Part shown: in pieces, positions 6,519 to 52,272 of the stretch
Layout: each line of letters opens with the position of its first letter
Position numbering within the stretch: position 1 is the first letter of the stretch
NCBI GenBank assembly: GCA_938023075.1
Contig: CALHDG010000048.1
Location: 1-55,500, forward strand
Direction of reading: 5' to 3'
Length of the DNA stretch: 55,500 bases
From: an uncultured Chitinophagales bacterium
Lineage (GTDB): Bacteria > Bacteroidota > Bacteroidia > Chitinophagales > JAHDHT01
Made by a program: the position numbers and the translations under genes
The notes under the pieces: model-generated
The model's input: only the letters and a program-made list of their open reading frames with translations
What the model was told of the DNA's origin: nothing
Database searches by the model: none

Positions 6519-8171
<1,653 letters not shown>

Positions 8172-10290: not shown

Positions 10291-11004
10291 TTAAAAATGG
10301 TTTTGCTGAAAATATTGATTAAAAGATGCGGACCAATTGCTTAAAGGACAATCGGTGACACTATTTCGTGTAGTATATTGTAAAAACAAAGAACGATTAA
10401 TTGGTTTTGCACCAAAACTGCTAAGATGAGGTGTTTCCATTTGACAGTCAATTAATTCAAACTTATGGGCTTTTAAAAATTTCACAAAGTATATAAAAGC
10501 AATTTTAGAAGCATTGCTGACTTTGGCAAACATCGATTCTCCACAAAACAATTTACCAAAGCCAATTCCATACAAGCCTCCGTTTAGGTTGCCTTCTAAA
10601 TCCCATAATTCTACCGAGTGTGCGCAACCCATTTGATGTAATTTAATATAGGCTTGTTTCATTTCAGGCGTAATCCAAGTGCCATTTTGATAATGCCGGC
10701 TAATGGTTTTGCATTGATCTATTACCGATTCAAAACTTTGATTCATCGTTACCCGGTAGTTGTCTTTTCGTAAAACAGGGCGCATGCTTTTGGCTATCTT
10801 TAGCTCATTAGGATATAATACAAATCTTGGATCAGGCGACCACCACAATATCGGTTCATCATCACTAAACCAGGGAAATATACCCCTTTGATAGGCTTTC
10901 AAAATTCTATTGGGGTGCAAGTCGCCACCAACTGCCAATAAACCACTCTCCATTGATAAAGATGGGTTAGGGAAAATATGTTCTTCCGGTAATCTATAAA
11001 TCAA
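10291..11004 (-). CDS. aat: Leucyl/phenylalanyl-tRNA-protein transferase
   Basis: The 237-residue protein is a full-length Aat. It starts with RLPEEHIFPNP, then GLLAVGGDL, AYQRGIFPWF, WWSPDPRFVL, SRHYQNGTWIT, HSVELWD, GGLYGIGFGKLFCGESMF and IDCQMETPHLSSFGA, all family signatures. It attaches Leu or Phe from tRNA to N-terminal Arg/Lys of target proteins, creating primary N-degrons recognised by ClpS. The start must be TTG at 11004 (or a weaker ATT/CTT), because an in-frame stop lies seven codons upstream and no ATG precedes the conserved N-terminus. It follows clpS by 96 bp and precedes the ATE/Bpt-like gene by 47 bp on the same strand. Confidence 0.97.
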   Translation of the reverse strand: MIYRLPEEHIFPNPSLSMESGLLAVGGDLHPNRILKAYQRGIFPWFSDDEPILWWSPDPRFVLYPNELKIAKSMRPVLRKDNYRVTMNQSFESVIDQCKTISRHYQNGTWITPEMKQAYIKLHQMGCAHSVELWDLEGNLNGGLYGIGFGKLFCGESMFAKVSNASKIAFIYFVKFLKAHKFELIDCQMETPHLSSFGAKPINRSLFLQYTTRNSVTDCPLSNWSASFNQYFQQNHF

Positions 11005-11100
11005 AAAACTATTTACAATAAGTTATGAAAATAAGGCACGGCAAAATTTTTAGAGAATAAAAACTTGAAGAAAAGGATTATTTGATGTTTGATAGCTTAT

Positions 11101-11391
11101 TTACTCAATAGTAGCTCCAATACCTCTGTCAATAAAAGCATCTTTTAAAGGTCTTAAAACCTTCAAACTTCCACTTTTAACACCATATTTACCTCTGTAA
11201 TGTATAATTAAAGTACATTGTTCTGCTTGTTCAATATCCATATCACAAATGTCCATTAAAGAAGCAATAACGTAATCAAATGTATTAATCTCATCATTAT
11301 GTACCACTAGGTTACTAGTTTCTACTACTTGCTCTAACACTTCATTGGCAACGAGTACTTCTGTAGATGGTTTAGTTGAAAATTGAGACAT
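11101..11391 (-). CDS. clpS: ATP-dependent Clp protease adaptor ClpS
   Basis: The 96-residue protein has a disordered N-terminus followed by the ClpS fold: LVVHNDEINTFDYVI (N-degron pocket region with the N-D-x-x-T motif), LMDICDMDIEQAEQCTLIIH and a basic GKYGVKSGS segment. ClpS binds proteins bearing N-terminal Leu/Phe/Trp/Tyr and hands them to the Clp ATPase. Its position as first gene of a clpS-aat-ATE/Bpt-like row places substrate tagging and recognition together. The ATG start gives a normal family length. Confidence 0.96.
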   Translation of the reverse strand: MSQFSTKPSTEVLVANEVLEQVVETSNLVVHNDEINTFDYVIASLMDICDMDIEQAEQCTLIIHYRGKYGVKSGSLKVLRPLKDAFIDRGIGATIE

Positions 11392-43954: not shown

Positions 43955-44083
43955 AGAACGAGCAGGTCTAAGTTTTGTTAACTCATATTCTTCATTAATT
44001 AATTGCTGTGTTCAAGTAACAAGTTCAAAACTTTTAAAAGCAGTTAGAATAAATTATTGTTCTGTGCTTTGCTTATTTAACAG

Positions 44084-44331
44084 TTAATCTAATTCCATAT
44101 TAAAGTAATAGCCAAATTTGTCTTTGCCGATTGTTAACTCCTTTTCTAAATAAGGCGTTTTTTCAACTAGGGTCAATTTTATTAAGTCCATTTCTTTTTT
44201 TGATACGAAATGAGGCTGATAGTTGGTTGTTTTGTTGTTGCTCAATATTGGATAAATTTTTGATTCCAATTGTATAGCTGAGTTTGTCTCAATAATATTT
44301 AACTTTAGGATCATGCTGTATGGCAAGGCAT
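44084..44331 (-). pseudogene. Duplicated C-terminal fragment of the capA-like gene
   Basis: This frame encodes ~80 residues nearly identical to the last 80 of the CapA-like protein at 46866-48062 (both contain NNKTTNYQPHFVSKKEMDL and end FGYYFNMxLD). The DNA duplication spans 44023-44331 versus 46805-47112, including ~60 bases of downstream flank. The N-terminal ~320 residues and catalytic part are absent, so this is a dead fragment. Its upstream end joins an unrelated ORF at 44456. Confidence 0.9.
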
Positions 44332-44712: not shown

Positions 44713-46725
44713 TTATTGCTTTATAAATTTTTGCGAAGCACTTCCAGTTTGGTTATATACCTGAACCAAGTACATCCCTTTAGGTAAATTGCTTACGTTT
44801 AGCTTTTGAGGAACTTGTGTAAGCGCTTCAGTTAAATAAACTTTTCCGTTAATGTCGGTTATGAAAAGTGTAGCCAATTCAAAAGCACTGCTTTGGTAAG
44901 ATACTTGAATAGACTCCTTAGCGATGCCTGGACTTACAGTTAGAATTGGATTGGTTTTAAGCGGTGCTAACTTTGGAGCAAGCCCATTATTAATACAAAA
45001 GTTCTGACTTTGCGAAGCACCAAAAGCACCCCCACCAGAAACTAAAACTGTTCCATTGGCATCGGTTAAATTGTAATTACCACATAAACCCGGTGTGGCC
45101 ACCAAACTTAAAGTACCCACAATGGAGCCCGGTGAAATTAAAGTACCCGGTGTAATAAAGGTAGATACACCAACCGCACTACTTTGAAATGGACACATCC
45201 CATTATTTAAGGCATCATTCATTTGCAACGTATAGCAGCCATCGGGCAAACAAGTACTTTCTGTTAGGTTTGAATACGTAGGTTGTCCGCTATAAGAATT
45301 ACTGGAAGCCACTACCATATTATTTGCATCAACAATTGACCAACTGGTTTGAGCAGGAAAACCATCAAAACTAATATTCAGATCTACGCCGGCACAACAA
45401 TTATCAGTTTCTAGACTTATATTTGATAAAATAAACGAATGCGTACCACCTGATGCACCTGTTGCTGTATATCTGATACCAATATAAACAGAAGCGTTGC
45501 CCGTTGCGGCTGCGTAGTTAATGTTCAAACCAAAAACATCCGAATTGCCAGCAGTGGTTACTAAATTCCAATTAGGATCGGCCGGATTATTAGAAGTGGC
45601 GTTCCATAAAAATTCTAAATCAGGGCCTGTATAGTTTTCATCAATATCTAAAACCAAATTGGCTAAAGTAGCGTTGCTTAAATTAACCGGACCATAAATT
45701 AACCATTGTTCACTGGCATTATTTCCGGCAGTATAAGCATTAATGGTGTACGAGCCATCGGCATTGCAAAGCCAGGTTGGTTGTGTGCCGTTATTTGTAA
45801 TAACCGGTACCGAAGTAAAATCACAAGCATTCAATTGTTCAATAGCACAAGCTGTGGTGGTTGCGCAAGGGCTTTCCCAAATAAGGGATGCATATTCCGG
45901 ATGGTCGATAAATGGATTTCGATTACCTTGGTGAGTTGATAAAGCAATGGCATTGTTTCGGGCAATTTCTAAAGCGCTTGGCGCATCTTGATTATGCCAT
46001 TGCAATAGCATACTTAACAAGCAGGGTTCATAAATAGTTAAAATATCATTACTGAAAACACTAGCTGTTTGTGAGTTTACATTTTTCCAGTTTTGATTTA
46101 TGATTTCATCTTGATAACGCACCGCCATATATAAAAATACTCGAGCAAAATCGCCTTTGTAGCCATTGTCCGGTTCAAAAACAAAATCATCAAAAGTAGT
46201 TCCGTTATTGATGTTGGTGCATGGTTGTCCATCTAAACCAATATTGGTCATAGGAAAAGTGGCATAAGGATAATTTCCATTTATAGATGTACTCACCAAA
46301 CCAAGCGGATAAGCACTTTTATCAGAATTGGTTACCGCATCGGATGGAAAGAGGTTGTGAAAATCGGAATATTGGGTTACCGAAGTGCTTCCGCCCCACC
46401 ACGATTTGGGTAAAACATGTTCTCTATTTATAGCACTTGGCAAGCTGTTACCCGAGCAAGAATATGAAGTGCCTTTATAGCGATCAATAATAGTTCCATT
46501 GGCATTTACATCATAGGTGCAAATAAAAGGAGTGAGATCTGCAAAATAGTCACGCACTGTATGCCCATCAATTAAATCGTGCAAGGCTTGTTTTAAAGGC
46601 ATGCAATCTAAACCGTTTGCTACCTGACTTTCTACTGTATTGTAGTAGCTGCCCTGTGCCCAAACATTAGTTTTTGTAAAAATGATAAGGATGATAAAAG
46701 TAAGTAATAATTTACTGATTTTCAT
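44713..46725 (-). CDS. Secreted endonuclease I family nuclease with T9SS sorting domain
   Basis: The 670-residue protein has a signal peptide (ISKLLLTFIILIIFTKTNVWAQ). The endonuclease I domain (residues ~25-300) has the metal/catalytic motif SAINREHVLPKSWWGG, YSDFHNLFPSD and GYKGDFARVFLYMAVRY. Then come an acidic linker of cysteine pairs, two probable beta-sandwich regions (~310-450 and ~460-560), and a C-terminal sorting domain ending LPKGMYLVQVYNQTGSASQK. Family members are extracellular DNases/RNases that cut nonspecifically. T9SS would carry it to the surface or medium, for nucleic-acid scavenging or matrix turnover. It stands alone; the capA-like gene lies 140 bp upstream. Confidence 0.93.
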   Translation of the reverse strand: MKISKLLLTFIILIIFTKTNVWAQGSYYNTVESQVANGLDCMPLKQALHDLIDGHTVRDYFADLTPFICTYDVNANGTIIDRYKGTSYSCSGNSLPSAINREHVLPKSWWGGSTSVTQYSDFHNLFPSDAVTNSDKSAYPLGLVSTSINGNYPYATFPMTNIGLDGQPCTNINNGTTFDDFVFEPDNGYKGDFARVFLYMAVRYQDEIINQNWKNVNSQTASVFSNDILTIYEPCLLSMLLQWHNQDAPSALEIARNNAIALSTHQGNRNPFIDHPEYASLIWESPCATTTACAIEQLNACDFTSVPVITNNGTQPTWLCNADGSYTINAYTAGNNASEQWLIYGPVNLSNATLANLVLDIDENYTGPDLEFLWNATSNNPADPNWNLVTTAGNSDVFGLNINYAAATGNASVYIGIRYTATGASGGTHSFILSNISLETDNCCAGVDLNISFDGFPAQTSWSIVDANNMVVASSNSYSGQPTYSNLTESTCLPDGCYTLQMNDALNNGMCPFQSSAVGVSTFITPGTLISPGSIVGTLSLVATPGLCGNYNLTDANGTVLVSGGGAFGASQSQNFCINNGLAPKLAPLKTNPILTVSPGIAKESIQVSYQSSAFELATLFITDINGKVYLTEALTQVPQKLNVSNLPKGMYLVQVYNQTGSASQKFIKQ

Positions 46726-46865
46726 TTGTATATAAATTTAATTATGTTCACTGCAAAGTTATAAAAAAAGCAAATGTAATCTATTTATAAATGTTAAAAT
46801 GTATGTTCAAAACTTTTAAAAGCAGTTAGAATAAATTGTTCTTTTATGCTTTGCTTATTTACCAG

Positions 46866-48062
46866 TTAATCTAATTTCATATTAAAATAATAGCCAAATT
46901 TATCTTTGCTGATTGTTAACTCCTTTTCTAAATAGGGTGTTTTTTCAACTAGGGTCAATTTTATTAAGTCCATTTCTTTTTTTGATACGAAATGAGGCTG
47001 ATAGTTGGTTGTTTTGTTGTTGCTCAATATTGGATAGATTTTTGATTGCAATTGTATACCTGAGTTTGTCTCAATAATATTTAACTTTAGGATCATGCTG
47101 TATGGCAAGGCATTTTGTTTTTTATACCTGCCTGTTGAATTCATGACTAAATTCCCTAAATTATAAAATATCCATCGTCCGCTTTTCTTTTCTATCTCTT
47201 GAAATTTATGTGCCCCATGGCCAACTATCAAATCAGCACCAGCCTCAATTAATTGTTCAGCCAATAGTTCTTGGTCTTTATGCTTCCATTTATAATTGGC
47301 TCCCCAATGTGGAAAAGCTATTATTATGGCTGTTGAATCCAATTTTTTTATTCCACGAATTTGAAGTTTCGCGTTTTCAACAGTCCATTCATTAACTCCT
47401 GCCTTTTTTTCTTCTGCATAAAAACGATAGGTTGTTTTATACTTTTCTCTATATTCAAAACCGCCTGTCAAATAAATATTTCTTAACAATTTATTTTTGA
47501 TTACTATGGGTTTTGAAGCTTCTAATTCGTTTTTCCCGGCTCCAAAATATTCAATGTTTACTGTTGAAAGAAGTTTAAAAGTTGTTTCCATTCCTTCTAC
47601 TCCCTGATCTAATGAATGATTGTTGCCAAGACTCAGATAATCAAAATCAAGGTCAGCTAATACGGCAATAGCTTCTTCTGCTTTACACCAATGCAAATAG
47701 TTCTTCAAATTTTGGAGCCGGTTATTTTTTATTTGACCTGATATGGGTGTTTCTAAATTGGCGACAAGTAATTCTGCTGATTTTAGCAAAGGCTTTACTA
47801 TCGCAAAGCTATTAGCATAGCCTTTTTCTTGTAAAACACAATTAGATACTATATTGTTCTTATGTAAGTGATACCGGTCTCCAAAATCAATATCTCCACC
47901 AAAAACAATTTCGACTTGATTGGTTTGACTGTTCGGTATAGGCAACTTTGGAGTTTTGCATGAAAATACGATTAACAAAAGAGATAAAAATAGAAAAAAT
48001 AGATTTCGTTTGTTATGATCATTTTTCAAATGAAACGGTCTGCTATTAAATATAAATCGCAT
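46866..48062 (-). CDS. CapA-family (poly-gamma-glutamate synthesis-type) metallophosphatase-fold protein
   Basis: The 398-residue protein has an N-terminal hydrophobic segment (LFFLFLSLLLIVFSCKT) with a lipobox cysteine. The CapA fold has VEIVFGGDIDFGDRY (metal-site aspartates), LLVANLETPISG, YLSLGNNHSLDQGVEGMETT, IAFPHWGANYKWK and LIVGHGAHKFQEIEK, ending IFYNLGNLV. These motifs match PGA_cap proteins, thought to act in capsule polymer assembly or, in other lineages, as phosphatases. It lies 30 bp downstream of the ABC gene, making it the last gene of a P-loop-ABC-CapA operon. Its final 309 bases are duplicated at 44023-44331. Confidence 0.9.
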   Translation of the reverse strand: MRFIFNSRPFHLKNDHNKRNLFFLFLSLLLIVFSCKTPKLPIPNSQTNQVEIVFGGDIDFGDRYHLHKNNIVSNCVLQEKGYANSFAIVKPLLKSAELLVANLETPISGQIKNNRLQNLKNYLHWCKAEEAIAVLADLDFDYLSLGNNHSLDQGVEGMETTFKLLSTVNIEYFGAGKNELEASKPIVIKNKLLRNIYLTGGFEYREKYKTTYRFYAEEKKAGVNEWTVENAKLQIRGIKKLDSTAIIIAFPHWGANYKWKHKDQELLAEQLIEAGADLIVGHGAHKFQEIEKKSGRWIFYNLGNLVMNSTGRYKKQNALPYSMILKLNIIETNSGIQLQSKIYPILSNNKTTNYQPHFVSKKEMDLIKLTLVEKTPYLEKELTISKDKFGYYFNMKLD

Positions 48063-48092
48063 GATTTTATGGACTAAATCACATTTTAAAAA

Positions 48093-49832
48093 TTACATTT
48101 CAAGTGCAAGCCTGATGAGTTTATTGGATAACAGTGATTTATTGTTTATCATATTAAAAGCGTCCATTTGATGCAAACGGATGGAATACTGCACATTTAG
48201 CAGCCTGCAATCTTTCAATTTACTGAAAATTACAATCGTTCGCTTTTTGCTTAGTTGGTTAAGTTGTTTGCATAGTTGAAGTTTAGTTAATTCATCAATT
48301 GCTTCAAAGGGTTCATCCAGTAGCAATATTGGCTTATTGGTTAATAAAGCTCTGGCAATAATCAATAGTTTCTTTTCTCCTTTTGAAAGGCAGCAACCTA
48401 AATCTCCAATCCGGTCATCTAATAATAATTGCTGTTTATGATGTTTTTGCAGTTCATTTAAAATTTTGCCTGCCTTTGGTTTTTTAAGTTTGTTTCTACT
48501 GTAAGATATGGCTTCGAATACGGTTTTACCCAACAAAGGCATTTCATCCGAAACAACGGCTATCTTTTTCATCAATGATTTGGCATTTACCTGATCGCTG
48601 CATTGACCATCAATTAAAACACTACCAACTTGAGGTTTGTACATGCCACACATCAATTTTAACAAAGTAGTTTTGCCACTACCCGCTTTGCCACTAATTA
48701 AAGTAAGGTTATTATTTTTTATAAGCAAGTTTAGGTTTTCAAAAAGCGACGGTTTGTTTTGGTAGTGATAGCTTAAATTTTCAATTGAAAGGATGCCATG
48801 CTGAAATACAAAAGGAGTAGGTTTTGAGTTTCGCATGGCATCACCTTCATTAATAATACTTAGCAATTTTTCAAATGAAATACTGCCTAATTCCCAAACA
48901 ATATTTACTCGTAGTAACCTGTTAAAAACAGGCAACAACGTAACTAAAAGAAGCACCATAACCAACAAACTACCTGCATCGGTTTCTATAGCATTTTCTT
49001 TTAAATAATAAACGGTAAACAAAACCACAGCCAGCATCAAATACATCATCGCGGGGATTATTGTACGAATGCCGGCTGTAATTTTTTGGTATGAAATACC
49101 ATATATATGCAGAAAACGAGATTTGTTTAGAAATTTTAGATTTTCGGGTTGATACCTGTTTAGGAGTTTAATTGAGCTTATGGTTCGTAAACGCGTGTTT
49201 ACAAAAGACAGTAAACCCGATTTTGCATTTCTCTTTTTTCGAGTGGCTTTAGATAGCCTGGTATTCAATAAAATTAATATAAAAATAGCCCCAACAAATA
49301 CTATAGAAATAGCCAATCCTATTCGCCAATTCATTACATAAAAAACTGCAAAAATTATCAGCACCAATACTGCATCAATACTAAACCGGATAAGCCCTTT
49401 AGTTAAATAACTTTGTATACTAACTAAGTCTCCACTAAAGCGCAATAAATATTTGCCAATACCCTTTTGCTCGTAAGTAGTTAAAGGCAAATGGAGTTGA
49501 GCAAAGAAAAGCCGGTTTCGCAAATCGAACGCCAGCCTTTCTTTAATAACTCCAATATAAATTTTATCCCCCAACAAGCAGCCAGTTTTGAGGATTACCA
49601 ATACTAAAAAGAAGTATAAAAAACTAAGCACATCTTTTGTTGCATGAAAGGGAAGAAAATCAAAAATTTTTGAGCGATAGCTATTGAAATCAAAAACAAG
49701 CTCATAATATTTACCAATTGAAACCGGAATTAAAACCGTTAGTATGCTGGAAAAGAAGCCCAGAAGAACAGCTTTGCCAAGCAACCAACGGTTTTTTTGT
49801 ATAAAATCAATTAGAAAATGATATTTACTCAT
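48093..49832 (-). CDS. ABC half-transporter (membrane plus ATPase domain) with degenerate Q- and H-loops
   Basis: The 579-residue protein has six hydrophobic segments (residues ~15-310, exporter-type ABC_membrane fold) and an NBD. The NBD has Walker A GKAGSGKT (381-388), signature LSKGE (482-486, where LSGGQ is usual) and Walker B ILLLDEP (502-508). The Q-loop reads VVSDEM, with Asp429 where Gln is normal, and the H-loop region is VIFSKLK, with Ser/Lys instead of His. Walker residues and the catalytic Glu are kept, so some ATP binding is likely but the cycle may be slowed. It lies 12 bp behind the P-loop gene and 30 bp before the CapA-like gene, so it may export the operon's product; that is inference. 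Confidence 0.93.
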   Translation of the reverse strand: MSKYHFLIDFIQKNRWLLGKAVLLGFFSSILTVLIPVSIGKYYELVFDFNSYRSKIFDFLPFHATKDVLSFLYFFLVLVILKTGCLLGDKIYIGVIKERLAFDLRNRLFFAQLHLPLTTYEQKGIGKYLLRFSGDLVSIQSYLTKGLIRFSIDAVLVLIIFAVFYVMNWRIGLAISIVFVGAIFILILLNTRLSKATRKKRNAKSGLLSFVNTRLRTISSIKLLNRYQPENLKFLNKSRFLHIYGISYQKITAGIRTIIPAMMYLMLAVVLFTVYYLKENAIETDAGSLLVMVLLLVTLLPVFNRLLRVNIVWELGSISFEKLLSIINEGDAMRNSKPTPFVFQHGILSIENLSYHYQNKPSLFENLNLLIKNNNLTLISGKAGSGKTTLLKLMCGMYKPQVGSVLIDGQCSDQVNAKSLMKKIAVVSDEMPLLGKTVFEAISYSRNKLKKPKAGKILNELQKHHKQQLLLDDRIGDLGCCLSKGEKKLLIIARALLTNKPILLLDEPFEAIDELTKLQLCKQLNQLSKKRTIVIFSKLKDCRLLNVQYSIRLHQMDAFNMINNKSLLSNKLIRLALEM

Positions 49833-49844
49833 TTAACTATTTAA

Positions 49845-50906
49845 TTAAACTGCCATAGAAATTCTTTTTGCCTCAATTATTGGATTATTTTCATGCATCC
49901 ATTCCTTAGTTTCAATTAAATCTTCTAGGGTAACTACAGGTATGTTGGTCATTGAATTCACTTCATCAATCAACATAGGCGATGCAGTAAAACTGCCACA
50001 CAAGGCAAATGGTTTCAGGTCAAAATCTTTTAATATTTGCAACCCATGCAAAATACCGGTACTACTGCTATCCGAATAAATAATGCGGTTAATGGTACGC
50101 ATAAATTTTTCAGATTTTAACAACATAGCCGTTTCTCTTTGTAGTAAACCATCCGCAATTTCTATTACAATTTTATGGGGTCTGCAATTTTTGTGAACTT
50201 CTGCTAATAAGCCTTGATATAAATTTAGCAATTCAGGCAAATCGCATAAATAGGTAGATGGAAAACCCATGCTCGAAAAATCAGTAGAATAATGCGCTCC
50301 GCAATCGGCTGCAAAATCGGTATCTTTTGTATATACAGTACCGGTTAATTTTATAAAAGCAACTTTTTTACCAGCAAGTGCATAGCCCCTGCAAACATAA
50401 CCGGCTGTAGTGGTTTTTCCGCTATCCATAGAACCACCTATTGATAAAGTAATTTCTACATTATTTTGAGTAATGCCTGTAAATTCAATTGTTGGTTTGC
50501 CATAATATTTGGTGTTAATTACCTCTCCATTTTGGTTGGTAGCATATGCAATTAAGCGAACCCGGGTAGGTCCCTTGTGTTCATAACGCCGGTGAATTGA
50601 GTTCATAATACCAACCACGCCGCCTTGTCCTAATATATGATATTCATCACAAATTTTTTCTGGAATTTTACCTTCTAATTGAGCAGTTGCATAGCGGTTG
50701 CCAAAAGTTGCCATAAATACATCGCCCGGTAAAATGCGGTGGTTTTTCCCATCCGTCATTTGTAGCCGTGTATGTTTGCCTAATTCTATTACTTCAAAAA
50801 ATGCCACATCACCAGCTTGAGGGAGATAAGCATTTATTTTTGAAGGGTTTAAGTTAAATTCAGTAACTGACTTGCAGATAACGGTTTGTTTTACTTGATC
50901 TATCAT
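49845..50906 (-). CDS. P-loop NTPase of unknown function (DUF1611-like architecture)
   Basis: The 353-residue protein has an N-terminal ~150-residue domain with conserved-looking GDVFMATFGNRYATAQLEG (61-79) and LGQGGVVGIMNS. A P-loop domain follows with Walker A GGSMDSGKTTTAGY (157-170) and KVAFIKLTGT, DTDFAADCGAHYSTDFSSMG and IVIEIADGLLQRETAML. The C-terminal part (ALCGSFTASPMLIDEV) is Rossmann-like. I recall DUF1611-type proteins with this P-loop but did not compare them. It lies 12 bp before the ABC gene and overlaps by four bases (ATGA) with the small frame behind it. A link to polymer or peptide modification and export is speculative. Confidence 0.75.
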   Translation of the reverse strand: MIDQVKQTVICKSVTEFNLNPSKINAYLPQAGDVAFFEVIELGKHTRLQMTDGKNHRILPGDVFMATFGNRYATAQLEGKIPEKICDEYHILGQGGVVGIMNSIHRRYEHKGPTRVRLIAYATNQNGEVINTKYYGKPTIEFTGITQNNVEITLSIGGSMDSGKTTTAGYVCRGYALAGKKVAFIKLTGTVYTKDTDFAADCGAHYSTDFSSMGFPSTYLCDLPELLNLYQGLLAEVHKNCRPHKIVIEIADGLLQRETAMLLKSEKFMRTINRIIYSDSSSTGILHGLQILKDFDLKPFALCGSFTASPMLIDEVNSMTNIPVVTLEDLIETKEWMHENNPIIEAKRISMAV

Positions 50907-51083
50907 GCTAAAATTTTTTGTTGTGAATTACGTTTTATTACCTGCAATATTTTTTGAACTATAAGTGGAGACTTATCCAACTTCTTTTCGTTAAATAATA
51001 GATTGCCATCAGCAGTGCACAATGATGAATTGGTTATCTTTCCAGTCTCGTCTAGTAGAACTATTTTGATATATCCATTCATT
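50903..51083 (-). pseudogene. Frameshifted small ORF at the head of the P-loop-ABC-CapA operon
   Basis: An ATG at 51083 starts MNGYIKIV, then the frame is lost. Shifting by one base at the run GTTTCTACTAG (about 51058-51065) restores a coherent ~60-residue protein (LLDETGKITNSSLCTADGNL, then FNEKKLDKSPLIVQKILQVI and a basic tail). Its stop overlaps the P-loop gene start as ATGA. Coding-like content plus ATGA coupling suggest a real gene; alternatives are a sequencing error, programmed frameshifting, or chance. Upstream, CATATTTG (~51110) may be a -7 box. Confidence 0.45.
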
Positions 51084-51167: not shown

Positions 51168-52169
51168 CTATTTTAGTATGATACTTTTTGTAAAGGTGTT
51201 TACTTTATTTGGTGAAGATTTCAACCGGTAATTCACCACACTTATTACAGGCAAGAGGTCCATTTTTTGCCGGATCAAATATTCATACGCTTTACCTGTA
51301 AACAATAAATGCCCATTGAAGGTGTACAAACTGAAATTTAAGACTTCCATATCCTGATTATTGATGTTTATTTTTAGCTGTCTATTTTGTTGAATGATAT
51401 CAATTTCTGCTGAGTTCAAGTCAGCCAATATGCGATTGTTTTTCCCTGCTTTTTGAGGCTGTATTTCTATTATATTTTTATCTTTTATTACCTCAAGGTT
51501 ATTTCTATTATTTTTTTCATCGTCTTCTTCTTCTTCTTCTTCATTTTCATCATCGTTGTCTTCTTCATTTTCATCCTCCTCACCGTCTCTTTCCAACTCT
51601 TCTTCTTCCTCATCTTCTTCTTCTTCTTCTTCTTCATCCTCTTCTTCCTCATCATCCTCTTCTTCCTCATCATCATCCTCTTCTTCCTCATCGCTTAAGT
51701 TTATTGGCGCATCTTTAACAAATACTTGCTTTACACCGTAGTTATTGGCGGTGTTAGAATCTATAATACGATTTGTTTCAGGCCAAATAATAACCACACC
51801 CTGCGTGTTAGAGATAAATCTTGCGGAATTGATTAGTATACTTCTGCTAAAAGCAATACTTTCTCCAGGATATAGTTGTACATTTTCTAATAATTCTTCT
51901 TCATCCACTTCATCGTCTTCATCGTAATCTTCCGGCTCGGTATCTTCAATATCATAATTGAGTAAAATATTACTTTCAAAAACTATGTCGCTTTCATTTT
52001 TTATAAAGCCCTCTAAAACCACTGTTTCTCCAATTTGGACTGTATCGGGAAAAATAATATTATTGATAGATAAATCTATTTGTTCCTCTGACGCAATTTG
52101 AGCATAAGAGACAACATTTAGCAAAACGCCAATAAAAGAAAGGCAAGTAAGTATTTTTGTTAATTTCAT
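51168..52169 (-). CDS. Secreted protein with CARDB-like domain, Asp/Glu-only tract and T9SS-like C-terminus
   Basis: From the ATG at 52169 (a TTG at 52175 is the alternative) the protein has a signal peptide (LTKILTCLSFIGVLLNVVSYAQ). A CARDB-like beta domain follows at ~30-150 (IDLSINNIIFPDTVQIGETV, LYPGESIAFSRSI, SNTANNYGVKQVFV). A ~75-residue stretch of almost only Asp and Glu (EEEDDDEEEEDDEEEEDEEE and similar, bases ~51480-51700) is next. The last ~85 residues (LKININNQDMEVLNFSLYTF to TKSIILK) look like a T9SS sorting domain. The acidic tract is coded by TTC/TCA-type simple repeats and could be length-variable. Acidic runs of this kind bind Ca2+ or basic partners; function is unknown. Confidence 0.82.
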   Translation of the reverse strand: MKLTKILTCLSFIGVLLNVVSYAQIASEEQIDLSINNIIFPDTVQIGETVVLEGFIKNESDIVFESNILLNYDIEDTEPEDYDEDDEVDEEELLENVQLYPGESIAFSRSILINSARFISNTQGVVIIWPETNRIIDSNTANNYGVKQVFVKDAPINLSDEEEEDDDEEEEDDEEEEDEEEEEEEDEEEEELERDGEEDENEEDNDDENEEEEEEDDEKNNRNNLEVIKDKNIIEIQPQKAGKNNRILADLNSAEIDIIQQNRQLKININNQDMEVLNFSLYTFNGHLLFTGKAYEYLIRQKMDLLPVISVVNYRLKSSPNKVNTFTKSIILK

Positions 52170-52272
52170 GTTCAATTTTATTTAGTTATTAATTTTATAC
52201 ACTTATTAGTACTTCTATATGCATTCAAAGTTGCCTCATAATTAAATTTTATAGTAAGTTAAAAATTTATTA

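Follow-up and report, generated by a model that had tools for sequence, protein, structure and literature searches.

A P-loop enzyme paired with a degenerate ABC half-transporter in Bacteroidota and Alphaproteobacteria, and the acidic-tract secreted proteins encoded beside it

Dethiobiotin synthetase (DTBS) and CTP synthase (CTPS) use ATP, and for both the ATP-driven activation of a carboxylate or carbamate is established. ABC half-exporters of the MsbA/CydCD type combine an ABC_membrane with an ABC_tran domain, and the PgsBCA capsule system includes a protein with a CapA domain. To our knowledge, no role has been assigned to the long poly-aspartate/glutamate tracts that ribosomes build into some secreted proteins of bacteria. 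The locus described here, found in a window of 55,500 nucleotides (the whole stretch of DNA analysed) from an uncultured Chitinophagales bacterium, brings relatives of these enzymes, transporters and capsule proteins together with a tract of this kind. The open-access literature consulted yielded nothing on the function of DUF1611, a family structurally related to DTBS, nothing usable on HTTM/DUF393 and poly-Asp, and no description of the P-loop/ABC gene pair of this locus, although absence there is no proof. For DUF2490, the outer-membrane barrel that often accompanies the pair, function is reported as not established (PMC4827864).

Gene content of the locus

The genes concerned are the following, in the order of reading.

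51168-52169, minus strand: secreted protein with an acidic tract, about 333 aa (signal peptide and tract)
50903-51082, minus strand: small ORF, 59 aa (ORF list and comparison with a paralogue)
49845-50906, minus strand: P-loop NTPase, 353 aa (conserved motifs and predicted-structure match)
48093-49832, minus strand: ABC half-transporter-like membrane protein, 579 aa (Pfam and reading of the NBD motifs)
46866-48062, minus strand: CapA/PGA_cap-domain protein, 398 aa (PF09587)

The original prediction had placed the last four genes in one operon, and the ORF coordinates bear out the arrangement: a 4-base ATGA overlap joins the small ORF to the P-loop gene, and 12 and 30 bases follow between the P-loop and ABC genes and between the ABC and CapA genes. 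The acidic-tract gene has the same orientation and precedes the small ORF by 85 bases; judged from spacing and orientation only, it is probably co-transcribed, so that the transcription unit would start one gene earlier and span 52169 to 46866. The single operon thus stands, but the four genes as a unit do not, as the small ORF and CapA are absent beside P-loop/ABC genes in relatives and the four-gene order, sought in other genomes, was found nowhere else. Beyond the operon, an endonuclease gene with a T9SS C-terminal sorting domain (44713-46725, minus strand; Endonuclease I PF04231, 4.9e-43; PF18962, 6e-11) sits between capA and a capA fragment. The fragment belongs to a recent direct duplication (44023-44322 and 46805-47104, 95% over 300 nt) comprising the capA 3' end and a downstream stretch, its second copy being a stop-containing remnant beyond the endonuclease gene.

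The 59-aa protein has no Pfam match. An intact paralogue, 69% identical over 51 aa, stands alone on another contig of the same genome (C278, about 6992-7171 of locus L122). Of the codons compared between the two copies, 12 are unchanged, 23 carry silent differences and 16 encode another residue; the differences fall 15/8/33 on codon positions 1/2/3, and dN (NG86) is 0.25 with dS saturated. The intact paralogue and the purifying selection acting between both copies indicate that the small ORF is coding, a real gene. It nevertheless appears private or lineage-restricted: its own genome has it in two copies, the loci of relatives showed no homologue next to their P-loop genes, and beyond this genome a search of 298 genomes of the order gave just two matches, both marginal (E about 0.008). 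A weak similarity to the C-terminus of the acidic-tract protein was also seen (36% over 44 aa; E 9e-4 for a single comparison).

Two functions had been suggested for the operon, the first being that the P-loop enzyme modifies a small protein, which the ABC protein then exports. In its fullest form this would be a RiPP pathway, with the 59-aa protein as a precursor on which both the P-loop enzyme and an MslH-like CapA act. The ATGA overlap between small ORF and P-loop gene, the selection on the 59-aa protein and the match of CapA to the MslH epimerase profile (NF038314, 4.5e-15) are in its favour, but the match reaches 55 bits against a cut-off of 700, the ABC protein has no C39 domain and a degenerate NBD, and the distribution of the small gene described above tells against a precursor. 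The RiPP pathway is therefore very improbable. Modification of the small protein by the P-loop enzyme and its export by the ABC protein are likewise unlikely: the small gene was not found beside other P-loop genes, its lone close relative stands by itself, and the ABC family has degenerate ATPase motifs.

The second suggestion was a capsule-like polymer system. CapA carries a clear PGA_cap domain (PF09587, 5.3e-53), is a probable lipoprotein by its LIVFSC lipobox, and has metal-site motifs (GGDID, NLETPIS, GNNH, HWG and GHGAH, read by eye). The PGA_cap domain speaks for a capsule operon centred on CapA, whether for poly-gamma-glutamate or another polymer; however, no PgsB was detected in the genome, which is 97% complete (TIGR04012 best 20.5 bits, cut-off 222.7), so a poly-gamma-glutamate capsule is not expected, and no cyanophycin synthetase rises above cut-off (NF010623 best 81.3 bits against 877). 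Moreover, among the related loci scanned, CapA adjoins the P-loop/ABC genes in this genome only. A capsule operon, and with it the suggestion in its PgsBCA sense, has next to no probability. CapA was likewise rejected as a conserved partner of the pair, since none of 18 further CapA loci has an adjoining P-loop or ABC gene. Cyanophycin had also been considered on account of recurrent genes for proteins of about 850 and 300 aa near the pair, which resembled CphA/CphB by size; the idea was dropped because, by sequence, these genes encode a TonB-dependent receptor and FecR.

The P-loop/ABC pair and its relatives

Of 99 genomes, 13 contain the P-loop protein, and almost all of these are from the same order. 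In the genome collection, 257 stretches carrying it were confirmed by tblastn; the best 80 of the 257 were read, and the anchor gene was recovered in 79. These 80 stretches are mostly from Bacteroidota, with a few under other MAG labels. Among the 79 loci from the same best 80, an ABC half-transporter-like gene follows the P-loop gene in 74, at a median gap of about 4 bp and often with an overlap. A DUF2490 outer-membrane barrel is encoded directly upstream of the P-loop gene in 33 of 48 loci scanned, and Asparaginase_2 recurs downstream (15 among 58 locus-derived proteins scanned). The pair occurs also in Alphaproteobacteria. Culturable hosts of the module include Flagellimonas and Aquimarina, the latter with an acidic tract as well. 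The conserved object is thus a module of a P-loop protein and a pseudo-ABC protein, usually with a barrel, and not a four-gene system. Its components belong to known superfamilies, while the pair at its core matches no described family, as the original prediction had held for the operon.

Two further relatives of the P-loop protein were noted. On a Priestia megaterium plasmid (L128, 7899-8960), a distant one lies without an ABC partner in a cluster with two ATP-grasp genes, a gene of the PEP mutase family and TPP enzymes, a content that suggests phosphonate-type biosynthesis. In Microvirga ossetica (L129, 7896-9659), another is annotated as 'transposase', and within 8 kb of it the opposite strand carries HlyD, ABC genes and a gene of the CapA family.

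A Pfam scan of the window P-loop protein gave nothing above cut-off. Its AlphaFold2 model (mean pLDDT 94) comprises an N-terminal all-beta domain (about residues 1-145) and a C-terminal domain (about 147-340). Residues 147-340 match structures of DTBS, CTPS and DUF1611 proteins (Z 14.5-15.3, 176-188 residues aligned, rmsd 2.8-3.4), including the DUF1611 structure 2obn_B (Z 14.7, 183 aligned, rmsd 3.2). The N-terminal domain, confidently predicted on its own, has no counterpart in the PDB at E<0.6 (Z<3). In 53 sequences of the family, the MDSGKTT P-loop, K186, TGT, E249 and ADG are invariant. By fold and order of motifs, the modelled protein appears closest to ATP-using enzymes that activate a carboxylate or carbamate. 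Regarding DUF1611 at the sequence level, the window protein has no match to PF07755 at E<=1; nine of 13 family members do match it, below the Pfam cut-off (best E 1.1e-4), and some proteobacterial relatives carry a DUF1611 annotation in public records.

The ABC protein has both the membrane and the nucleotide-binding domain (ABC_membrane PF00664, 4.6e-29; ABC_tran PF00005, 5e-27), but not the full set of catalytic motifs expected of an exporter: Walker A and B are kept, Ser replaces the Q-loop Gln and the H-loop His is lost. Across 70 members of the family, the Walker A Lys-Ser/Thr is present in 48 and the Walker B Glu in 37, whereas 17 have the signature SxG and seven a Gln close to the Q-loop. 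Eleven have a His anywhere near the H-loop, in a convincing position in about three of them. In the alphaproteobacterial members of loci L125 and L127 essentially all NBD motifs are lost, whereas a C39-type ABC protein in L127, aligned in the same way, shows canonical motifs. The degeneration of Q-loop, signature and H-loop across the family makes an ordinary exporter unlikely.

These data bear on a model of small-molecule biosynthesis and export, in which the P-loop protein would make a diffusible metabolite (a signal, metallophore or peptide-like compound) for the ABC protein to move and the barrel to release, and the acidic-tract proteins would be neighbours by shared regulation. The DTBS/CTPS-like fold agrees with such a model, as do the distant relative in the Priestia phosphonate/ATP-grasp cluster and the many loci lying beside FecI/FecR/TonB-receptor or sigma/anti-sigma genes. 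However, most members of the ABC family have lost the NBD motifs required for ATP-driven export, no further biosynthetic enzyme is conserved with the pair, and the linkage to acidic tracts is left unexplained. We regard the model as possible, although on the unlikely side.

Acidic tracts beside the module

The protein encoded at 51168-52169 has a signal peptide, MKLTKILTCLSFIGVLLNVVSYAQ, and an acidic tract, DEEEEDDDEEEEDDEEEEDEEEEEEEDEEEEE, of 32 residues (24 E, 8 D), within a stretch of about 64 residues that is 83% D/E. The ORF list gives its start as a TTG at 52175, but an ATG at 52169 is likelier. This tract contains the only run of at least 16 consecutive acidic residues in the 6.12-Mb genome (51598-51692). 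Elsewhere, the scanned neighbours of the module included proteins with acidic runs, for example D17 and D28, and whole-genome scans for GAY x8 gave 0-2 merged sites per genome of 3-9 Mb. In 39 genomes (181 Mb), a scan for [DE] runs of 16 or longer gave 12 merged runs, nine of which fall within module loci that make up 0.75 Mb, or 0.41% of the scanned DNA (binomial P 7.5e-20, ignoring relatedness); over all loci, the density outside them predicts 0.02 runs against nine observed. The 39 genomes were chosen partly with prior knowledge of tract carriers, but the enrichment is too large to come from genome choice alone. Since the module loci are phylogenetically related, P values for the tract linkage are inflated, and the independent lineages number about four: the S8 peptidases of Flavobacteriaceae and Saprospiraceae, the lipoproteins of about 300 aa in Cytophagales-type loci, the window protein, and the S8 peptidases of Rhodobacterales.

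Within Bacteroidota, S8 proteins with an Asp-rich tract were found in L070, L097, L099, L105 and L107. In Alphaproteobacteria, all three loci with an S8 peptidase beside the pair have the tract just after the signal peptide, directly in L127 and L150, and in L125 upon reading upstream of the annotated start. The start of the L125 peptidase (10546-11343) appears to be annotated too late, and a signal-like stretch and the Asp-rich tract precede it in frame. In a Sulfitobacter locus (L126, 1372-1917), a gene 6 kb from the P-loop/ABC pair encodes a PepSY protein in which NDESNDSSS is repeated about a dozen times.

About 67 of the 79 module loci have no acidic tract in the retrieved flanks, and the tract may be limited to some sub-branches. 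Other neighbours vary with it. Among 45 well-flanked loci, HTTM-DCC is present in seven of nine with a tract and in none of the 36 others (Fisher P 8e-7), whereas asparaginase is absent from the nine and present in 17 of the 36 (P 0.009). Asparaginase and tracts being mutually exclusive, the finishing gene seems to vary by sub-branch; the window, where a Glu-rich tract is paired with CapA, is a single case and suggestive only. HTTM-DCC belongs to a two-gene unit. One gene encodes a 152-aa protein that matches nothing in Pfam, the other a fusion of an HTTM-like protein with a DCC1-like thiol-disulfide oxidoreductase. The unit was seen in L064 (7173-8968), L075, L078, L097, L099, L105 and L107, always with a poly-Asp protein nearby.

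Neighbouring regulators raise another explanation, an envelope-stress or signalling unit with the P-loop protein as switch and the degenerate ABC protein as sensor, which would act with ECF sigma and anti-sigma factors to control acidic lipoproteins or secreted S8 proteases. Genes for such factors occur near the pair in both phyla, and the SIMIBI-class fold includes switches and adaptors (MobB, HypB and SRP GTPases). On the other hand, no sigma gene was found next to the module of the window or in the majority of loci, and the active site looks DTBS-like, which would be typical of substrate-converting enzymes. Such a unit seems to us improbable.

Proposed function and comparison with known systems

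That the pair lies unusually often beside secreted proteins with long acidic runs points to an undescribed cell-envelope system, and of the clues to the function of the module this link, seen in two phyla, is the most informative. Our tentative proposal, in which we have limited confidence, is that the module services secreted envelope proteins with long Asp/Glu tracts; it would do so by ATP-dependent carboxylate chemistry, the exact form of which is less certain still. Gene content, pairing, motif states and tract linkage are observed, and from there we infer every chemical step. At its core, a DTBS-like enzyme that uses ATP in the cytosol would work with a degenerate ABC half-transporter, in most cases alongside a DUF2490 outer-membrane barrel. 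The P-loop enzyme would make, or activate by phosphorylation, a carboxylate- or amine-bearing group, following the chemistry of the DTBS/CTPS superfamily. The ABC protein, probably a membrane platform for this enzyme or a conduit unpowered by its own ATPase, would present or pass the group, and outside the cell the acidic tract would receive it, by attachment or in a complex. A lineage-specific third enzyme might then act on the product: CapA here, and elsewhere the Ntn-hydrolase Asparaginase_2 or the gamma-carboxylase-like HTTM-DCC.

Several points weigh against servicing. Linkage alone does not show direct action on the tract proteins, which are secreted, whereas the P-loop enzyme is cytosolic; most module loci are tract-free within the flanks retrieved, with asparaginase instead in 17 of the 45 well-flanked ones; and the Priestia relative fits small-molecule chemistry better. 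A stronger version, a cross-phylum system in which the DTBS-like enzyme and the pseudo-ABC protein covalently modify or load the poly-Asp/Glu tracts of S8 proteases and lipoproteins, with interchangeable finishing enzymes, is doubtful. If true, it would represent a new kind of side-chain carboxylate modification. A closely paired enzyme and membrane gene that track such tracts across Bacteroidota and Alphaproteobacteria offer a direct genetic handle.

Compared with known systems, the locus shares with PgsBCA the CapA domain, but PgsB is missing from this genome and CapA lies beside the module here only. The ABC protein has the domain architecture of MsbA/CydCD-type half-exporters; unlike these, most members of its family are without the Q-loop Gln, the LSGGQ signature and the H-loop His, a case of lost ATPase motifs while the adjoining separate P-loop enzyme retains its own. 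With DTBS, the CTP synthase amidoligase domain and DUF1611 (2obn, 2g0t), the P-loop protein has in common the C-terminal fold, the position of the P-loop and, read by eye, the conserved Lys and acidic-Gly motifs, and it is set apart from them by its all-beta N-terminal domain, which has no significant PDB match. HTTM is absent from the window, the one HTTM gene of this genome lying on another contig, but the vitamin K-dependent carboxylase-like HTTM with a DCC1-like oxidoreductase is present in relatives of the module that also bear poly-Asp tracts.
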